In this document: positions 8,806 to 16,756 of the stretch, one piece after another
How positions within the stretch are numbered: the first letter of the stretch is position 1
Layout of the letters: the number at the start of each line of letters is the position of its first letter
Assembly (NCBI RefSeq): GCF_000183745.1
Contig: NC_014761.1
Coordinates: 1,054,001 to 1,118,000, forward strand
Origin: Oceanithermus profundus DSM 14977
GTDB lineage: Bacteria > Deinococcota > Deinococci > Deinococcales > Marinithermaceae
Reading direction: 5' to 3'
Length of the DNA: 64,000 nt
Notes under the pieces: model-generated
The model's database searches: none
The model's input: only the letters and a program-made list of their open reading frames with translations
What the model was told of the DNA's origin: nothing
Program-made: the position numbers and the translations under genes

Positions 8806-8823
8806 ACGCGTCCGTACAGAACC

Positions 8824-8849
8824 CGCCGCCCCCGGAACCGGGGGCGGCG
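8824..8849 (+). terminator. Perfect 12-bp stem, AA loop, shared terminator
   Basis: CGCCGCCCCCGG and its exact reverse complement, separated by AA. It lies between the convergent CBS gene and the cupin gene and can serve both strands (GTTCGG on plus, GGGTTC on minus). Confidence 0.7.
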
Positions 8850-8862
8850 TTCGGCTTGGGGA

Positions 8863-9243
8863 TCAGCGGATCTCGGGAAAGGGCTGGCCGGGCAGCCAGT
8901 CGACGTCGACCTTGTCCTTGGGGTCGTAAGGCGCCTTGACGAAGATCGCCTTCCAGGGCGTGGCCCCGCGGTTGATCAGGTAGTGCGGGTGCATCGGCGG
9001 GACGTGGCAGAGGTCGCCGGGTCGCAGGATGTGGCGCTCCCCGTTGATGTAGATCTCCACCTCGCCCTCGAGGGTGAAGAAGTTTTCCTCGACCGCCCGG
9101 TGGTAGTGGGTCTGGAAGTCCTCGCCGGGCATGAGGACCACCATGCCGAAGTCGGATCGGGGGCCGCGCAGCAGGTACTTGGGCCCCGAGACCCCGTCGA
9201 AGCGGTAGGCCACCTCGTCTTCGTGAATGATGAACGGCTTCAA
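8863..9243 (-). CDS. Small cupin protein, last gene of the lsr operon
   Basis: 126 residues, one cupin domain. Motif 1 is complete: Gly40, His46, His48, Glu53, Gly60; motif 2 supplies His87 and Asn91 (PPMHPHYLIN), so a 3-His/1-Glu metal site is expected. The start is a TTG 15 bases after the lsrK stop, with AAGGAGG overlapping that stop. The position says it works with the Lsr pathway; lsrF and lsrG, which act on phospho-AI-2 elsewhere, are absent here. Isomerisation or oxidation of a sugar-like substrate is inference only. It could also be a generic sugar-binding or mutarotase-like cupin. Confidence 0.8.
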   Translation of the reverse strand: MKPFIIHEDEVAYRFDGVSGPKYLLRGPRSDFGMVVLMPGEDFQTHYHRAVEENFFTLEGEVEIYINGERHILRPGDLCHVPPMHPHYLINRGATPWKAIFVKAPYDPKDKVDVDWLPGQPFPEIR

Positions 9244-9258
9244 GTGGATCCTGCCTCC

Positions 9259-10815
9259 TTACTCGCCGGGCGCGCGCCACATGGATCGGGTCACGCCCCG
9301 GTCGGCGAGCTCGAGCTGGGCGGGGTAGGCCGCCTTCCAGCGCCGGTAGGCCTCGTCGTAGACCTCCGCCAGCGCCGGGTCGGGTTCGACCTCGCGCTCC
9401 CAGGCCACCCAGGCCCGCGCGCCCTCCTCCAGGTTACGGTGGATCCCCACGCCCACGGCGGCCGCGATCGCCGCGCCGAGGGCGGTGGCCTCCTTCACCA
9501 CCGGGATCTTGAGCGGAATCTGCAGCACGTCGGCGACGATCTGGGGCCACAACCGTCCCTTGGCCGCGCCCCCCGCGAAGACCGCGGAGGCGAGCGGGGC
9601 TCCGGTCAGCGCCGCGATGCGCTCCAGGTTGGCCCGGGTGACCAGCGCGGCGTTCTCCTGAAGCGCCCGGAAGAACGCGCCGCGGTGGGCCTTCTCGGGG
9701 TCGAGCGGAAAGTTGAGGAACGAGGGCGCCGCGTGCCGCCAGTGGCTGTAGTCCATCGCGTCCGAGAGGATGGGGGTGATGCCGTGTGAACCCGGCGGCA
9801 CCGTCGCCGCCAGTTCCTCGAGCAGCGCGTAGGCGTCGCGCCCTTCGCGGGCCGCACGCTCCTTGAGGTCGGGGGCCAGGGCGTCGCGGAACCAGCGCGC
9901 CGCGATGCCGGGAAAGAAGACGATGGCCTCGGCCTGCCACTGGGCGGGGTCGGGGGCGAAGTTGAGGCGCATGCGGCCGCTCGCGTCCGACCTGGGCCCG
10001 TCGAGGTTGACCTCCTGCTGCCAGAAGGAGCCCCCGAGGATCGCGCCCTCGCCGGGCCGCGTCACGCCCAGGCCGACGGTGCCCAGCTGGGCGTCGCCGC
10101 CGCCCATCACGATCGGCGTCCCGACCTCGAGGCCGGTCGCGGCCGCGGCCTCGGGGCTGACCTCCCCGATCACGGTGCCGACTTCGCGAACGGGCGTCTC
10201 CTGGAAGGCCGGTTTGATGCCGAGGCGGTCGAAGAGCTCGGGGTCCCAGCGGCGGGTCGCGAGGTCGAAGAGGCCCGTGGTGCCCCCGTTCGTGGGATCG
10301 AGGGCGATCTCCGCGCCCAGGCGCACCGCGATCCAGTCGCTGAGCATGGCGAGCCGGGCGGCCCGTTCGTAGAGCTCCGGCTCGTGGCGCTCGAGCCAGA
10401 GCAGCCGCGGCGCCGCCCCCAGGGCGAAGGTCTGCCCCGAGCGCAGGTAGGCCCAGCGCTCGAGCTCGGGATCGCGCTCGCGCAGTTCGCGCACCTCCCG
10501 CACCGCCCGCGCGTCCACGTTGGCGCAGGCCCAGAGTTCGCGCCCCTGTTCGTCGTAGAGGACGATGCCCTCACGCATGCTCGTGGTGCTGACGGCCGCC
10601 ACGTTCGCCCCGGGAACCTGCGCCAGCACCTCGCGTACGGCGTCGGCGAGCCGTTCCCAGTTGCGTTCCCGCTCGAAGGTCATCGAGCCGGGGTGGCCGG
10701 GTTCTTCGCGGTGCGTCCACTCCCGTCCGGCGGAGGCCAGCTGGCGGCCTTCCTCGTCGAAGAGCACCGCGCGCCCGCTGCCGGTTCCGGCGTCGAGGGC
10801 TAGAAGATGGCGCAT
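9259..10815 (-). CDS. lsrK: Autoinducer-2 kinase LsrK
   Basis: 518 residues, FGGY carbohydrate kinase family. It matches LsrK specifically: LALDAGTGSGRAVLFD, SMREGIVLYD, WACANVDARAVREV, DPTNGGTTGLFDL, GGGDAQLGTVGLGVTRPG, GGSFWQQEVNLD, HAAPSFLNFPLDPEK, IPVVKEATALGAAIAA and a terminal SMWRAPGE. LsrK phosphorylates imported AI-2 (the linear DPD form) in the cytoplasm, which traps the signal and makes the inducer for LsrR. It sits in the lsr operon after lsrB, separated by a hairpin; GGAGG precedes the ATG. Other FGGY kinases (xylulose, erythritol) are unlikely given the match along the whole length. Confidence 0.92.
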   Translation of the reverse strand: MRHLLALDAGTGSGRAVLFDEEGRQLASAGREWTHREEPGHPGSMTFERERNWERLADAVREVLAQVPGANVAAVSTTSMREGIVLYDEQGRELWACANVDARAVREVRELRERDPELERWAYLRSGQTFALGAAPRLLWLERHEPELYERAARLAMLSDWIAVRLGAEIALDPTNGGTTGLFDLATRRWDPELFDRLGIKPAFQETPVREVGTVIGEVSPEAAAATGLEVGTPIVMGGGDAQLGTVGLGVTRPGEGAILGGSFWQQEVNLDGPRSDASGRMRLNFAPDPAQWQAEAIVFFPGIAARWFRDALAPDLKERAAREGRDAYALLEELAATVPPGSHGITPILSDAMDYSHWRHAAPSFLNFPLDPEKAHRGAFFRALQENAALVTRANLERIAALTGAPLASAVFAGGAAKGRLWPQIVADVLQIPLKIPVVKEATALGAAIAAAVGVGIHRNLEEGARAWVAWEREVEPDPALAEVYDEAYRRWKAAYPAQLELADRGVTRSMWRAPGE

Positions 10816-10864: not shown

Positions 10865-11899
10865 CTAGAAGTCGTAGTCGTCGATGTTGTCGATGGTGAA
10901 GACGACGCGTTCGGGCAGGAGGATGATTCCGTTGTTGACCTCGCCCTGGTAGTCGTAACCCTGCACCGAGTTGGGCGAGACCTTGACGTGGCCCACGTCG
11001 GGGACGTCGAACTCGTCGCCCACGTGCAGCTGCTTGCCCTGCACGAGCAGGTTGGCCACGTAGATGGCCAGCTTGCCCTGCTTGACCACGTCCCAAAGGC
11101 CGAAGGCCTTGACCGTGCCGCGCTTGACGTAGGGGCGCATCACGTTGGGCGTCGAGAAGCCGGTGATGATCACCTTGCCGGCGATGCCCAGGTTCTCGGC
11201 GGCCTGGGCGGTGCCGGGCAGCGCGTTGGCGTCGGGGCAGATCACCGCGTCCAGGTCGGGGTGCGCCTGGAAGAGCGCGGTGGGGACCTGCACGGCCTTC
11301 TGCGCGTCCTCGTGGCTGAAGACGGTGTCGACGATCTCCCAGTTGGGGTACTGCTCGGCGATCACCTTCTTGGCGACGACGACCCACTGGTTCTGATCGG
11401 TCACGGTCGGGCTCGAATAGTGGAAGGCCACCTTCTTGGGGCTGCCCTTGGGGTCGTCCATCTGGTCGGCGGCCATCTTGACGAGCAGCTCGCCGAGCTG
11501 CTGGGCCGTGCCCTGGCTGATGTAGAAGGTGCGGTAGCGCGGGTTGACGTCGGAGTCCCAGGTCAGGATGATGACGCCCTTCTTCATCGCCCGCTTGAGC
11601 GCTTGGTTCAGCCCGTCGGGGGAGAGCGCGGAGATGGCGATGGCGTCGTAACCCTGGTTGACGAAGTTGTTGATGTATTCGATCTGGCCGGAGACGCTCG
11701 CGGTGCTGGGGCCGTCGTACTTCACCTTGATACCGAGCATGTTGCCCATCGCCACGGCGCCCTTACCCCCCGACTCGAAGAAGCCCACCCCGGTGAGCTT
11801 GGGGATGAAGGCGATCTTGACGTCCTTGGCGAAAGCCGTGCCTGCGAATGCAGCGAGGATCAGTGCTGCCGCGAAAACCAGCGAAAATTTCTTGCGCAT
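10865..11899 (-). CDS. lsrB: Autoinducer-2 binding protein LsrB
   Basis: 344 residues with a signal peptide (residues 1-24, cut after AFA). It follows LsrB closely: [101 protein letters not shown]. The six residues known to contact the AI-2 ligand in the Salmonella structure are all present: Lys34, Asp115, Asp168, Gln169, Pro222, Ala224. It captures AI-2 in the periplasm and hands it to LsrACD. The ATG at 11899 follows AGGAGG; an in-frame extension to 11923 lacks such a site. Confidence 0.95.
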
Positions 11900-11952
11900 G
11901 TTCAACCTCCTGTGCGAAACCAAGACCTGGGGCCGTTAGCTGGGTCAGGCGA

Positions 11953-12993
11953 TCACCTCCCGTCCCTCGAGGAAAGCGCCTTGCGTTTCAGGCGGTACTC
12001 TCCGTAGACGTGCAGCAGCTGCTTGGCCGCCATTGCCAGGATCAGCAGGCTGCCCACCACGACCTGAATCAGGTCGTTGGTCACGCCCAGCGCCAGCAGC
12101 CCTTGGCGGAGGAAACCCAGGATCATCCCCGCCAGCAGCGTGCCCAGGATCGTGCCGCTGCCGCCCAGGATGTCGGCCCCGCCCAGCACCACCGCGGTGA
12201 TGATGGGCAGCAGGGCGTCGCCCCCGAGGTCGGCGCGCGCCGAGGTGAAATACGAGGTCAGCATCACCCCCGCCAGCGCCGCGCCGAATCCGCTGAGCAC
12301 GTAGGCCCAGACGAGCACCCGGCGGATGGGGACGCCGCTGTAGGTGGCGGCCTTGGGGTTCACGCCGATGAGGTAGAGGTAACGGCCGAAGCGGGTCTTG
12401 TGGAGCAGCAGCGAAAGCACGAAGGCGAAGAACAGCACGGCGAGGAACGGGTAGGGCACGATGCCCAGGCTGCCCTCGGTCAGGGCGATGAAGGCGTCGG
12501 GCAGGCCGGTGATGCCTTCGTACTGGTAGGCGGCGAGGCCGGCCGAGCCGTAGGCCTTGAAGCCCAGCTTGTCGAGGAGCGCCGGCATGCCCTGGGCCAA
12601 GCCCGCGAACATGAAAAGGGTGCCGAGGGTGATGACGAGCGGGTTGACGTCGGTACGGGACACGAAGAAGCCGTTGAAGGCGCCGGCGAGTACCCCCACC
12701 AGCAAGGCCACCGCCAGCGCGGCGAAGACGTTCACCCCGGCCACCCAGACGAGGCCCAGGGTGATCGAGGCCAGCCCCATCACCGAGACGCCCGAGATGT
12801 CGATGCCCGCGGTGATGATGACCAGGGTCAGGGGCAGTGCCGCGAAGAGGATGTGGGTGAAGTCGAGGGTCGAGTAGAGCAGGTTCTCGAGGTTGAAGAA
12901 GACGGGGTTGACCAGCCCCAGCACGCCCAGTTCGAGCAGCAGGAGCGCGAAGAGCGCGAACTCCCAGCTGCGCAGGTAGCGCGTCCACTTCAT
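11953..12993 (-). CDS. lsrD: AI-2 ABC transporter permease LsrD
   Basis: 346 residues, multi-span inner-membrane permease of the ribose/AI-2 (BPD_transp_2) family. LsrD-like segments are LENLLYSTLDFTHI, ALPLTLVIITAGIDISGVSVMG, VNPLVITLGTLFMFAG, TSYFTSARADLGGDALLPIITAVVLGGADILGGSG. It pairs with LsrC to form the pore. Its ATG overlaps the lsrC stop (ATGA), so the two permeases are translationally coupled. Assignment of D rather than C rests on these matches and on the E. coli-like gene order A-C-D-B. Confidence 0.9.
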   Translation of the reverse strand: MKWTRYLRSWEFALFALLLLELGVLGLVNPVFFNLENLLYSTLDFTHILFAALPLTLVIITAGIDISGVSVMGLASITLGLVWVAGVNVFAALAVALLVGVLAGAFNGFFVSRTDVNPLVITLGTLFMFAGLAQGMPALLDKLGFKAYGSAGLAAYQYEGITGLPDAFIALTEGSLGIVPYPFLAVLFFAFVLSLLLHKTRFGRYLYLIGVNPKAATYSGVPIRRVLVWAYVLSGFGAALAGVMLTSYFTSARADLGGDALLPIITAVVLGGADILGGSGTILGTLLAGMILGFLRQGLLALGVTNDLIQVVVGSLLILAMAAKQLLHVYGEYRLKRKALSSRDGR

Positions 12994-13973
12994 GCGCCAC
13001 CTCCTGCGTCGCCGCGGATGCGGGCCTGACGCCGTTGCAGCTCGAGCGCGCTCCGAACGCGGTAGTCGACGTAGACGACGACGAGAAGGATGATCCCCGC
13101 GAAGGCGTTGTCCCAGATCCCCGGCACGCCCAGGAAGATCAGCATGCTGTGCACCGCGGTGAGGAAGAGCGCGCCGATCGCGGCCCCGACGGGCGTGCCC
13201 ACGCCGCCCGTGAGGCTGACGCCGCCCAGAACGTTGGCGGCGATGGCCTTGAGCTCGAACCCGTCGGCGGCGTTCATGGAGACGAAGCCGATCTGCGAGG
13301 TGAAGACGACGGCGGCGAAGGCGGCGAAGGTACCCGCCAGGGTGTAGGCGGCGAACTGGGTCCAGCGGACCGGAAGGCCCAGCAGGTAGGCGCCCGTCTC
13401 GTTGTCTCCCACGGCGTAGAAGTAGCGGGCCAGGCGCACCCTGAGGGTGACGAACGCCGTGAGCGCCAGCAGGGCCAGGGTCATCCAGACGAAGAAGGGG
13501 ACGCCCAGGAAGCCCCAGAGGTTGGGTTCCTTGATGCTCTGCGGCAGGTTTTCGATCCAGCTGCCGCCGGTGATGATGCGCATCAGCCCCCGATAGATGC
13601 CGAGGGTGCCCAGGGTCATGATGATGGGGGGCACCCGCAGGAAGGTCACGCCGAAGGCGTTGAGGGCGCCGGCCAGGGTTCCGGCGAGCACGGCCGCAAG
13701 GACGGCGCCGCCCACCGGCCAGCCCAGGTTGAGCGTCGTGCCCAGCACGACCGCCGCCAGCCCCGCGGTGGCGCCGACCGAGACGTCGATGCCGCGGGTG
13801 AGGATGACGAACATCTCGCCCAGGGCGATCAGCACCAGGGTGAGGCTGGCGTTGAAGATCTCGACGATCGAGGCCGCCTTGAAGAAGTTGGGGTTGAACA
13901 GCCCGGTGACGACGACGAGGAGGACGAGCAGCAGGGTGACCAGCGCTTCACGGCTGCGCACGAGATGCTTCAT
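12990..13973 (-). CDS. lsrC: AI-2 ABC transporter permease LsrC
   Basis: 327 residues, about nine or ten hydrophobic segments. LsrC-like features are FVILTRGIDVSVGATAG, TLGTLGIYRGLMRIITGGSWIENLP, YAVGDNETGAYLLGLPV and DGFELKAIAANVLGGVSLTGGVG. The start at 13973 overlaps the lsrA stop by four bases (ATGA), and its stop overlaps the lsrD start. It is half of the AI-2 import pore. Confidence 0.9.
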   Translation of the reverse strand: MKHLVRSREALVTLLLVLLVVVTGLFNPNFFKAASIVEIFNASLTLVLIALGEMFVILTRGIDVSVGATAGLAAVVLGTTLNLGWPVGGAVLAAVLAGTLAGALNAFGVTFLRVPPIIMTLGTLGIYRGLMRIITGGSWIENLPQSIKEPNLWGFLGVPFFVWMTLALLALTAFVTLRVRLARYFYAVGDNETGAYLLGLPVRWTQFAAYTLAGTFAAFAAVVFTSQIGFVSMNAADGFELKAIAANVLGGVSLTGGVGTPVGAAIGALFLTAVHSMLIFLGVPGIWDNAFAGIILLVVVYVDYRVRSALELQRRQARIRGDAGGGA

Positions 13974-15499
13974 GGCCGCCCCTCCGCCATTCCGAACGAG
14001 GCCGCGGTGACGCGCTCCAGGGTGAGGGCCCCGCCCTCGAGGTGCTCGACGACGCGGCCGCGGTGCATCACCAGCACCCGGTCGCTCAGCTCCACCACCT
14101 CCTCCAGCTCGGAGGAGATCAGCAGCACCCCGACCCCGGCGCCGGTCAGCGAGCGGATCAGCCGGTAGACGTCCTGGCGGGCGGAGGCGTCGATGCCGCG
14201 CGTGGGTTCGTCGAGGATGACGACCCTGGGCTCGGCCGCGAGCGCCCCTGCAAGCACGACCTTTTGCTGGTTGCCCCCCGAGAGCGTTCCCGCGGGCTGC
14301 CACATGCTGCTCAGCTTGATGTTCAGGGAGCGCACGAAGCCGTCGGCCACCTCGGCCTCCCTGCGGGTGTCGAGGAAGAGCCGGCCGAGGCGGCCGAGGA
14401 TGCCGGCGGTCATCGTGTAGACGCTGGGAAGTTCGAGGAAGATGCCGTGGGCGTGGCGGTCTTCGGGAACATAGACGAGGCCCTGCTCGCGGCAGAGCGC
14501 CGGCGAGCGGCGGGTGAGGGGGCGGCCGTGCACGAGCACCTCGCCGCGCGCGTGCGGGTCGATGCCCACGATCGCTTCGCACAGTTCGGTGCGGCCCGAC
14601 CCCACCAGCCCAGCGAGGCCCAGGACCTCGCCCGGATAGACCTCCAGGTTCACGTCCGCGAAGGCCTCGCTGCTCAGCCCCCGCACCGCGAGCAGGGGGC
14701 GGTCCCCCTCGCGGCGGGCTCGCTTTTCGCGCCCCGCCGGCTTGGCGCCGGTCGTCGCCGATCCGGGAGGCACCATGGCCTCGATGAGGTCGTGGGGGGT
14801 CAGGCGTTCGCGCCGGTCGCTGAGGACCATGCGGCCGTCGCGCAGCACACTGATGCGGTCGGCCACCTCCATCACCTCGCCCAGGCGGTGGGAGATGAAG
14901 ACGATGCCGATGCCGCGGCCGGCCAGGGTGCGCATCCGCTGGAACAGGCTCTCGGCCTCCCTGAAGGTCAGGGCCGAGGTGGGCTCGTCGAAGATCAGCA
15001 GCCGCGCGCGCCGCAAGAGCCCCCGGAGAATCTCCAGCAGCTGCTGCTGGGCGATGCTCAGAAAGGCGCCCTGCTCGTCCAGGTTCACCTCGAAGCCCAG
15101 CTCCTCGATCAGCGGCGCCACCTTGTCCGCGAGCTCCGCGGGTGGGAGCCCCAGCCCGATTCCCAGGTTTTCCAGGACGGAGAGGTGCGGGAAGACGTGG
15201 GGTTCCTGCGGCACCATGTAGATGCCGTGTTCGTGCGCGGCTCGGGGCGAGTCCAGGCGCACCGGACGTCCTTCCAGCTCGAGCCGGCCGGCGTCGAGGG
15301 GGTAGGCCCCCGAGATGATCTTCATCGTGGTGGACTTGCCGGAGCCGTTTCCACCCAAAAGCGCGTGGATCTCGCCGTGGGCCACCGCGAAGTCGATTCC
15401 CCGCAGCACGGGCACGCCGGCAAACACCTTCCAGGCGCCCTGGAGGCGCAGCAGCGGCGGCGCGTCGGCCGGGGCTGCGGAGGCGCGGGCCGCGCTCAC
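13970..15499 (-). CDS. lsrA: AI-2 ABC transporter ATP-binding protein LsrA
   Basis: 509 residues with two ABC cassettes. The first has Walker A GGNGSGKS, signature LSIAQQQ and Walker B LLIFDEPTSAL; the second has a degenerate Walker A GLVGSGRTE, a full LSGGNQQK signature and VVILDEPTRGID. This asymmetry is normal for LsrA/RbsA-type ATPases. I start it at the GTG at 15499, preceded by CCGGAGGAAAC; the longer frame to 15619 begins inside the promoter-operator and is rejected. It is the first gene of lsrACDBK-cupin and powers AI-2 uptake. Confidence 0.9.
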   Translation of the reverse strand: MSAARASAAPADAPPLLRLQGAWKVFAGVPVLRGIDFAVAHGEIHALLGGNGSGKSTTMKIISGAYPLDAGRLELEGRPVRLDSPRAAHEHGIYMVPQEPHVFPHLSVLENLGIGLGLPPAELADKVAPLIEELGFEVNLDEQGAFLSIAQQQLLEILRGLLRRARLLIFDEPTSALTFREAESLFQRMRTLAGRGIGIVFISHRLGEVMEVADRISVLRDGRMVLSDRRERLTPHDLIEAMVPPGSATTGAKPAGREKRARREGDRPLLAVRGLSSEAFADVNLEVYPGEVLGLAGLVGSGRTELCEAIVGIDPHARGEVLVHGRPLTRRSPALCREQGLVYVPEDRHAHGIFLELPSVYTMTAGILGRLGRLFLDTRREAEVADGFVRSLNIKLSSMWQPAGTLSGGNQQKVVLAGALAAEPRVVILDEPTRGIDASARQDVYRLIRSLTGAGVGVLLISSELEEVVELSDRVLVMHRGRVVEHLEGGALTLERVTAASFGMAEGRP

Positions 15500-15611
15500 C
15501 GTTTCCTCCGGAGGGGACGGGTCGGTCTGGATGCGTCTACGTTCAACACCATGGCGTAGGGGCCTCCCGGGCGTCTGCGCTGAAATCACATATGACAGCG
15601 CGTTGTAACTT

Positions 15612-15621
15612 ATGTGCACAT
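15612..15621. promoter_or_regulatory. Palindromic operator candidate at the lsrA promoter
   Basis: Perfect 10-base palindrome ATGTGCACAT, touching the -10 box of the lsrA promoter and covering its likely start point. The 10-mer TATGTGCACA (15611-15620) occurs again at 15734-15743 in front of lsrR. A further imperfect palindrome with CATATG core lies at 15587-15598. Binding by the divergent SorC/LsrR regulator is inferred. Confidence 0.6.
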
Positions 15622-15718: not shown

Positions 15719-15743
15719 TAGAGTAATGTCACGTATGTGCACA
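15719..15743 (+). promoter_or_regulatory. lsrR promoter and operator candidate
   Basis: TAGAGT at 15719-15724 is a fair -10; the upstream TTGTGG at 15694 is a weak -35 with a 19-base spacer. TATGTGCACA at 15734-15743 sits just after the expected start point and repeats the site at the lsrA promoter, so autorepression is likely. Confidence 0.5.
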
Positions 15744-15766
15744 CGGGGAGAGGGAGGGCATCGTCG

Positions 15767-16756
15767 ATGAATGAGGCCGAACGCGGAGCCGTCCGGGGCC
15801 GCCCGCGCGAAGACCGCCTCGCCTACCTGGCGCGCGTGGCTTCGCTTTACTACGAGGAGCAGAAGACGCAGCAGGAGATCGCCGCGTTGCTGGGCATCTC
15901 GCGCTCGGGGGTTTCGCGCCTGATCACCGAGGCCCGAGAGCGCGGGGTGGTGGAGATCATCGTGCACCACCCCTTGCAGACCTCTCCCGACCTGGCCGCG
16001 GAGCTGCAGCGGCGCTACGGCCTGAAAGACGTGCGGGTCCTGGCCGGCCGGGAGGAGGCCTACGAGCGCACCCTCAAGCGCCTGGGCGAGCTGGCGGCCC
16101 GCTACTTCGAGGACCTGCTCCACGACGGCATGACGATCGGGATCTCCTGGGGCGGGGCGCTGTACGAGATGATCCGTGCGATCCGCCCGCGCGTGCACGA
16201 GAACGTCGAGGTCGTCCAGCTCATCGGGGCGACGGGTGCCGAGGCCACGCCGACGAGCGGTCCCATCCTGGCGCAGCTGCTGGCCGAACGCCTCGGTTGC
16301 CGCAGCTACCAGCTGCACGCGCCGCTGATCGTGGACGGCGCGGCGGCGCGCCAGGCTCTCCTGGGCGAGCGCCACATCCGCGAGACGCTGGAGCGGGCCC
16401 GCAGGTCCGACATCGCCCTGGTGGGCATCGGCACCACCCGGTCCGGCTATTACAGCCTGGTGCGCGCCGGCTACCTCACCGAGGCCGAGGCCGCGGAGAT
16501 CCGCAAGAGCGGAGCGGTCGGCGACGTTTGCGCGCAGCACTACGGCTTCGACGGCCGCTGGCTCGACATCGAGCTGAACCGCCGGGTCATCGGCATCGAC
16601 CACGACGCCCTGCGCCGCATCGACACGGTGATCGGCGTGGCCGGGGGCGCGGTCAAGGCCCAGGCGATCCACGGGGCGCTGCGGGGACGCTACGTGAACG
16701 TGCTGATCACCGACGAGGCCGCGGCGCGCCGCCTGCTGGAGATGGAGGCGCCCTAG
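15767..16756 (+). CDS. lsrR: SorC/LsrR family transcriptional regulator
   Basis: 329 residues. The N-terminal HTH reads LYYEEQKTQQEIAALLGISRSGVSRLITEA, and the C-terminal sugar-binding domain has ALVGIGTTRSG, KSGAVGDVCAQHYG and VAGGAVKAQAIHGALRGRYVNVLITDE, the SorC-family phosphosugar fold. LsrR in enterobacteria represses lsr genes until phospho-AI-2 binds. The sequence alone says SorC family; the LsrR role comes from its divergent placement next to lsrACDBK. The ATG at 15767 follows GGGAGAGGGAGG; an upstream in-frame ATG at 15737 lies inside the operator. Confidence 0.82.
   Translation: MNEAERGAVRGRPREDRLAYLARVASLYYEEQKTQQEIAALLGISRSGVSRLITEARERGVVEIIVHHPLQTSPDLAAELQRRYGLKDVRVLAGREEAYERTLKRLGELAARYFEDLLHDGMTIGISWGGALYEMIRAIRPRVHENVEVVQLIGATGAEATPTSGPILAQLLAERLGCRSYQLHAPLIVDGAAARQALLGERHIRETLERARRSDIALVGIGTTRSGYYSLVRAGYLTEAEAAEIRKSGAVGDVCAQHYGFDGRWLDIELNRRVIGIDHDALRRIDTVIGVAGGAVKAQAIHGALRGRYVNVLITDEAAARRLLEMEAP

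Follow-up and report, generated by a model that had tools for sequence, protein, structure and literature searches.

A cupin encoded directly after lsrK in Oceanithermus profundus as a candidate phospho-AI-2 isomerase

Described lsr loci and their cupin

LsrG and LsrF have been described from enteric bacteria as the route by which phospho-AI-2 is removed, in which LsrG moves the keto group of phospho-AI-2 and LsrF then cleaves the product. Already known, from Quan & Bentley (2012; PMC3420918), are the association of lsrK with a gene annotated as a 'mannose-6-phosphate isomerase', which was reported in the B. cereus group, S. smaragdinae, and S. enterica, the assignment of the Salmonella homologue to the LsrR regulon, and a possible role of its product on AI-2-P. 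In addition, STM4071 was listed among the co-changing AI-2 genes, and its expression shifts with that of the lsr genes (PMC4804515). No tested function of STM4071, or of any lsr cupin, was found in the openly accessible literature.

Here we describe a cupin gene in a 64,000-nucleotide stretch (the window) of the O. profundus DSM 14977 chromosome. Its product resembles the STM4071 type (Quan & Bentley, 2012) in homology (46% identity to the Salmonella lsr-locus copy, 110 aa, E = 7e-35), in its place after lsrK, and in its four metal ligands. In contrast, the STM4071 type closes lsrRK, whereas the O. profundus cupin closes the transporter operon, and the STM4071-type enteric loci also carry LsrG, LsrF, and an epimerase, whereas O. 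profundus and its relatives lack LsrG. New here are the wider spread of the cupin, the pattern in which LsrF is kept and LsrG is lost, the cupin–LsrF pairs, and an lsrF homologue found in the O. profundus genome.

In the Salmonella record and the two E. coli records inspected, the cupin accompanies LsrG, LsrF, and an LsrE-type epimerase, and matches to it were found in 125 E. coli genomes out of 5,426 complete ones. This co-presence in Salmonella-type loci indicates that the cupin is not a strict substitute everywhere, and a one-for-one exchange of LsrG and the cupin in all lineages was rejected. Loss of LsrG is reported to raise lsr transcription in enterics, including Salmonella (PMC2728841), suggesting that LsrG and the cupin are not fully redundant there. 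Both the co-presence and the LsrG phenotype favor an accessory AI-2 enzyme, which would catalyze another step (interconversion of cyclic and open AI-2 or phospho-AI-2, or conversion of a side product) and leave the LsrG step unfilled, spontaneous, or to another enzyme. The L. paracasei locus, where RbsD, a pyranase, immediately follows the cupin, points the same way. We nevertheless consider this reading rather unlikely, owing to the distribution of LsrG and LsrF described below. The two inspected E. coli loci (L180 and L181, 1-9345) comprised the epimerase, lsrG, lsrF, lsrBDCA, lsrR, lsrK, and the cupin, with IS and intron remnants alongside.

The O. profundus lsr operon and its last gene

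The operon runs leftwards from 15.6 kb in the order lsrA, lsrC, lsrD, lsrB, lsrK, and cupin, its final gene, with the regulator divergent (Table 1).

Table 1. Features of the O. profundus lsr region in window coordinates, and the LsrF homologue in genome coordinates
Feature	Position	Strand	Basis or remark
G+C-rich hairpin between convergent cupin and CBS-domain genes	8822..8856	.	region folds at -31 kcal/mol
Cupin gene	8863..9243	-	126 aa, TTG start; metal ligands H46, H48, E53, H87
Shine-Dalgarno AAGGAGG	9254..9260	-	overlaps lsrK stop TAA (9259-9261)
lsrK, autoinducer-2 kinase, 518 aa	9259..10815	-	NCBIfam NF008187 740 bits, cut-off 528; 52% identical to E. coli LsrK
lsrB, AI-2 binding protein	10865..11923	-	NCBIfam 551 bits, cut-off 384; 60% identical to E. 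coli LsrB
lsrD-like permease	11953..12993	-	top NCBIfam match LsrD, 281 bits, under cut-off 500
lsrC-like permease	12990..13967	-	top NCBIfam match LsrC, 291 bits, under cut-off 388
lsrA-like ATPase (longest ORF)	13970..15619	-	top NCBIfam match LsrA, 549 bits, under cut-off 586
Candidate operator TATGTGCACA, copy 1, lsrR-lsrA gap	15611..15620	.	motif scan
Candidate operator TATGTGCACA, copy 2, lsrR-lsrA gap	15734..15743	.	motif scan
SorC/LsrR-like regulator, divergent	15737..16756	+	Pfam Sugar-bind 247 bits; LsrR 167, DeoR 256 bits, both under cut-off
LsrF homologue, only O. profundus copy	G000:C2:358999-359781		NCBIfam 352 bits, cut-off 297; 49% identical

The lsrK/cupin junction reads GAGTAAGGAGGCAGGATCCACTTG. 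The cupin orthologues begin at the identical codon position (mostly ATG, also GTG or TTG), which indicates that the start call is correct. The ORF, the junction, and the orthologue starts thus agree with the 126-residue product, TTG start, and Shine-Dalgarno on the lsrK stop given in the first-pass annotation. For the lsrA-like ATPase, similarity starts only near residue 50 in most relatives, and the true start may lie inside the longest ORF.

The paired TATGTGCACA sites are candidate LsrR operators: three matches with at most one mismatch were found in the window versus 0.37 expected. The motif is kept in the nearest relative (L002) and was not found in the more distant relatives checked. The hairpin beyond the cupin gene is a possible operon end, though without a T run, and the terminator scan made no call, including at the hairpin. 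In some Chloroflexota and MAG lsr loci, two LsrR-like genes were seen (L011 202-2474, L012 1620-10364, L014 3-2569).

The matches of LsrA, LsrC, LsrD, and LsrR fall under their NCBIfam cut-offs, which would fit an operon for the uptake of a pentose-like sugar instead of AI-2, with the cupin as a mannose-6-phosphate-like isomerase for that sugar. Annotated Thermococcus phosphomannose isomerases among the closest folds, and the transketolase, DhaK, and RuBisCO-like genes that adjoin the LsrK-less cupin–LsrF clusters, are also consistent with such an operon. However, LsrK and LsrB score above their equivalog cut-offs, luxS is present elsewhere in the O. profundus chromosome, and LsrB keeps all six positions matching Salmonella K35, D116, D166, Q167, P220, and A222, which we take to be the AI-2-contacting residues. 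Uptake of another sugar is therefore very improbable. LuxS and LsrB had already been recorded for O. profundus in a published survey (PMC6022435).

The cupin matched Cupin_2 (PF07883) at 68 bits, versus a gathering cut-off of 27.2. In an alignment of 27 homologues from several phyla, the four ligands, in the pattern HxH(x)3-4E ... H, were invariant, as were R14, G20, P21, Y23, G27, P28, Y88, and N91, and K22 and E52 were nearly invariant. The profile match and the invariant ligands bear out the full 3-His/1-Glu metal site claimed earlier, as a prediction from sequence, and R14, K22, and Y23 could accommodate a phosphorylated substrate. The AlphaFold model is a single beta-barrel (pLDDT 86.5), and the nearest structures in a fold search were Cupin_2 proteins of small size, among them one from Thermus with no assigned role. 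The Thermococcus 'phosphomannose isomerases' 7zvm and 7zvy were among the top fold matches; like archaeal cupin PGI, they are small metal-site barrels resembling the cupin, at about 25% identity. PF01050, the mannose-6-phosphate isomerase family, scored 24.3 bits (cut-off 23.6), far under the Cupin_2 score, and NCBIfam GMP_PMI scored 26 bits versus a cut-off of 373. In the fold search, the cupin fell within a large set of Cupin_2 proteins, a result that does not discriminate function, and the modelled fold does not by itself fix the reaction.

The best PDB sequence matches of the cupin were quercetin dioxygenase domains. Sites with three His and one Glu support O2 chemistry in other cupins, and Dke1 cleaves acetylacetone. 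The sequence matches, the metal site, and the microaerophilic host (PMC3111992) are consistent with an oxygenase that would cleave phospho-AI-2 or its 2,4-dione isomer and so end the signal in a truly different way. However, a homologue adjacent to lsrK has been reported in Spirochaeta smaragdinae, which is a strict anaerobe, and LsrF, which an oxygenase would make superfluous, is almost always kept; an oxygenase role is accordingly highly unlikely. Of the earlier proposal of an alternative phospho-AI-2 isomerase or oxygenase, the isomerase half stands as a good candidate, whereas the anaerobic homologue weakens the other half. The small, one-domain cupin, in what appears to be an autoregulated operon, might also be a non-catalytic protein that binds and buffers phospho-AI-2 and thereby tunes LsrR. 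It carries no DNA-binding or partner domain, its invariant metal site suggests catalysis, and it occurs with lsrF where lsrK is absent, all of which make a buffering role quite improbable.

LsrK, LsrG, and LsrF across genomes

Relatives of the cupin were sought in 84,980 genomes, one per GTDB species, and 16 were obtained, from Thermaceae, Anaerolineae and other Chloroflexota, Spirochaetaceae, and one 'Syntrophus' MAG. The cupin lies directly 3' of lsrK in 16/16 of these, as in the window. Plasmid records extend the cupin to Deinococcus psychrotolerans, Lacticaseibacillus paracasei, and Salmonella, so that the lsrK–cupin pair is kept in Deinococcota, Chloroflexota, Spirochaetota, Lacticaseibacillus, Salmonella, and some E. 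coli. Among 345 Spirochaetota genomes, a strong match (>160 bits) was seen in 11 of the 16 with LsrK and in none of the 329 others (Fisher 2e-17). Among 111 Deinococcota genomes, the cupin was seen in 8/9 with LsrK versus 3/102 others (Fisher 3e-9); in the ninth LsrK genome, lsrK is truncated at a contig end, and in the three LsrK-less genomes the cupin copy is more distant. Cupin and LsrK distances are correlated across 27 loci (r = 0.92, p = 0.0001), suggesting that the pair mostly travelled together. On the D. psychrotolerans plasmid (L087 7698-11381), lsrK and the cupin are accompanied by an MFS transporter gene, and the Lsr ABC transporter is absent from the stretch seen.

E. coli LsrG had no match in the O. 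profundus genome or in eight relatives, and the LsrG profile (NF007791, ABM fold) did not match the cupin protein. In the 29 LsrK genomes, which comprise Deinococcota, Chloroflexota, Spirochaetota, and one MAG, LsrG was above its cut-off in 0/29, in a profile search that had no positive-control genome and whose sensitivity is given by a 42% identical match in the spirochaete G116. This LsrG relative, at 81 bits, lies away from lsr. In the named control genomes, the LsrG profile was likewise never above its cut-off. An ABM-family protein occupies the position after lsrK in Ensifer, Rhizobium, Thalassospira, and Alloyangia, and the three compared were 41-54% identical to E. coli LsrG. These results suggest that the slot alternates between the cupin and LsrG, which are unrelated in fold and sequence and for which the same step is predicted, a metal requirement being predicted for the cupin. 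At the alphaproteobacterial loci inspected (L090-L093), the LsrG relative directly follows lsrK, and a class II aldolase stands in the place of lsrF.

LsrF, a P-HPD thiolase and homologue of TIM-barrel class I aldolases, was above its cut-off in 27/29 of the same genomes. In Chloroflexota and Spirochaetota, lsrF usually sits within the lsr locus, next to lsrR, lsrB, or lsrK, including in members that have the cupin and no LsrG. The O. profundus homologue lies 0.7 Mb from the lsr operon, together with mtnA, mtnK, an Rpe-like epimerase, and a zinc alcohol dehydrogenase, and all active-site residues checked are conserved (K203, D57, H58, D251, and R254). Because this homologue exists, the cupin does not replace LsrF; such a replacement was rejected for O. 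profundus and for the other LsrK genomes with an LsrF homologue. The first-pass annotation had stated that neither lsrF nor lsrG is present and that the cupin replaces both, which holds for both genes within the operon and for LsrG throughout the genome, but not for LsrF. The lsrK–cupin adjacency that it suggested seeking in genomes without lsrFG was seen in many genomes without lsrG, whereas most of the LsrK genomes retain LsrF. This combination of lost LsrG and kept LsrF also argues against the accessory enzyme, as do the LsrK-less cupin–LsrF pairs, which suit a step coupled to LsrF better than one before the kinase.

The distant LsrF homologue may serve the AI-2 pathway, methylthioribose salvage, or both; in the LsrF tree, it clusters with mtn-linked and lsr-linked proteins alike. 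In two relatives (G018 and G021), the two operons share a strand, lsr-cupin first and mtn-lsrF second, separated by a regulator gene and sugar transporter genes. As to co-regulated copies of lsrF and lsrG elsewhere in the genome, lsrF was found and lsrG was not, and a motif scan of the mtn-lsrF region did not find TATGTGCACA, which is kept only in the nearest relative checked; control of the distant lsrF through the lsr operator was therefore rejected. The operon of mtnA, mtnK, and the rpe-like, lsrF-like, and zinc alcohol dehydrogenase genes (L057 7913-12529; G000:C2 about 357.9-362.5 kb) looks like a methylthioribose salvage route, similar to the DHAP shunt, that would use an LsrF-type class I aldolase.

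A predicted step between kinase and thiolase

Cupin phosphosugar isomerases use a bound metal for isomerizations of the enediol type. The LsrG step is of this type, and the cupin is therefore proposed for it. LsrK would make phospho-AI-2 (P-DPD), on which the cupin, as a cytoplasmic, metal-dependent isomerase of the phosphosugar type, would act, moving the carbonyl group so that the 2,4-dione (P-HPD) forms, that is, performing the step of LsrG with an unrelated fold. LsrF, the predicted next enzyme, would then cleave P-HPD; it co-occurs with the cupin or is adjacent to it in nearly all cupin genomes. LsrF, and not the cupin, would finish the signal, and the earlier description of the cupin as a different end to the signal overstates the case: the route would, if anything, be the same, with one enzyme exchanged.

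We judge the chance that the cupin isomerizes phospho-AI-2 ahead of LsrF to be about even. The cupin and its metal site are conserved, the gene is linked to both lsrK and lsrF, and LsrG is absent; the reaction and substrate are proposed on the basis of these observations. Counted in favor were the lsrK linkage, the co-occurrence statistics, the loss of LsrG with LsrF kept, the cupin–LsrF pairs, the alphaproteobacterial slot, the correlated distances, R14, K22, and Y23, and the shared expression and LsrR regulon of the Salmonella homologue; counted against were the enteric loci with LsrG, LsrF, and the cupin, the D. psychrotolerans pair, the distant lsrF, the uninformative fold, and the lack of a positive-control genome in the LsrG search. 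More tentatively, and at somewhat less than an even chance, the family, so far noted only as an lsrK neighbour, may constitute a second, unrelated phospho-AI-2 isomerase that replaces LsrG in Deinococcota, Chloroflexota, and Spirochaetota and that, in genomes without LsrK, works alongside LsrF on related diketo-phosphates.

If the isomerase assignment is true, unrelated enzymes clearly fill one slot in a signalling pathway, and the uncharacterized cupin of the Salmonella lsr locus gains a testable function. If the first step falls to the cupin in many lineages, surveys that equate the absence of lsrG with the absence of AI-2 processing err.

In genomic terms, the cupin is placed between the kinase and the thiolase. 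In the three LsrK-less Deinococcota genomes, a related cupin gene lies directly 5' of that of an LsrF homologue, with an LsrR-like gene, and these clusters perhaps represent a related diketo-sugar-phosphate pathway. They adjoin split transketolase, RuBisCO-like, or DhaK-type kinase genes (L156 1165-6084, L157 4-8941, L158 450-2926), and the RuBisCO-like protein is nearest to MtnW, under the cut-off. In several Chloroflexota loci (L082-L086), LsrK-like kinases scoring 620-645 bits adjoin a 2-hydroxyacid dehydrogenase-like gene with no cupin; a VOC-like gene was seen in several of these loci, and lsrF and an rpe-like gene in two. Although above the LsrK cut-off, these kinases possibly act on a different substrate.
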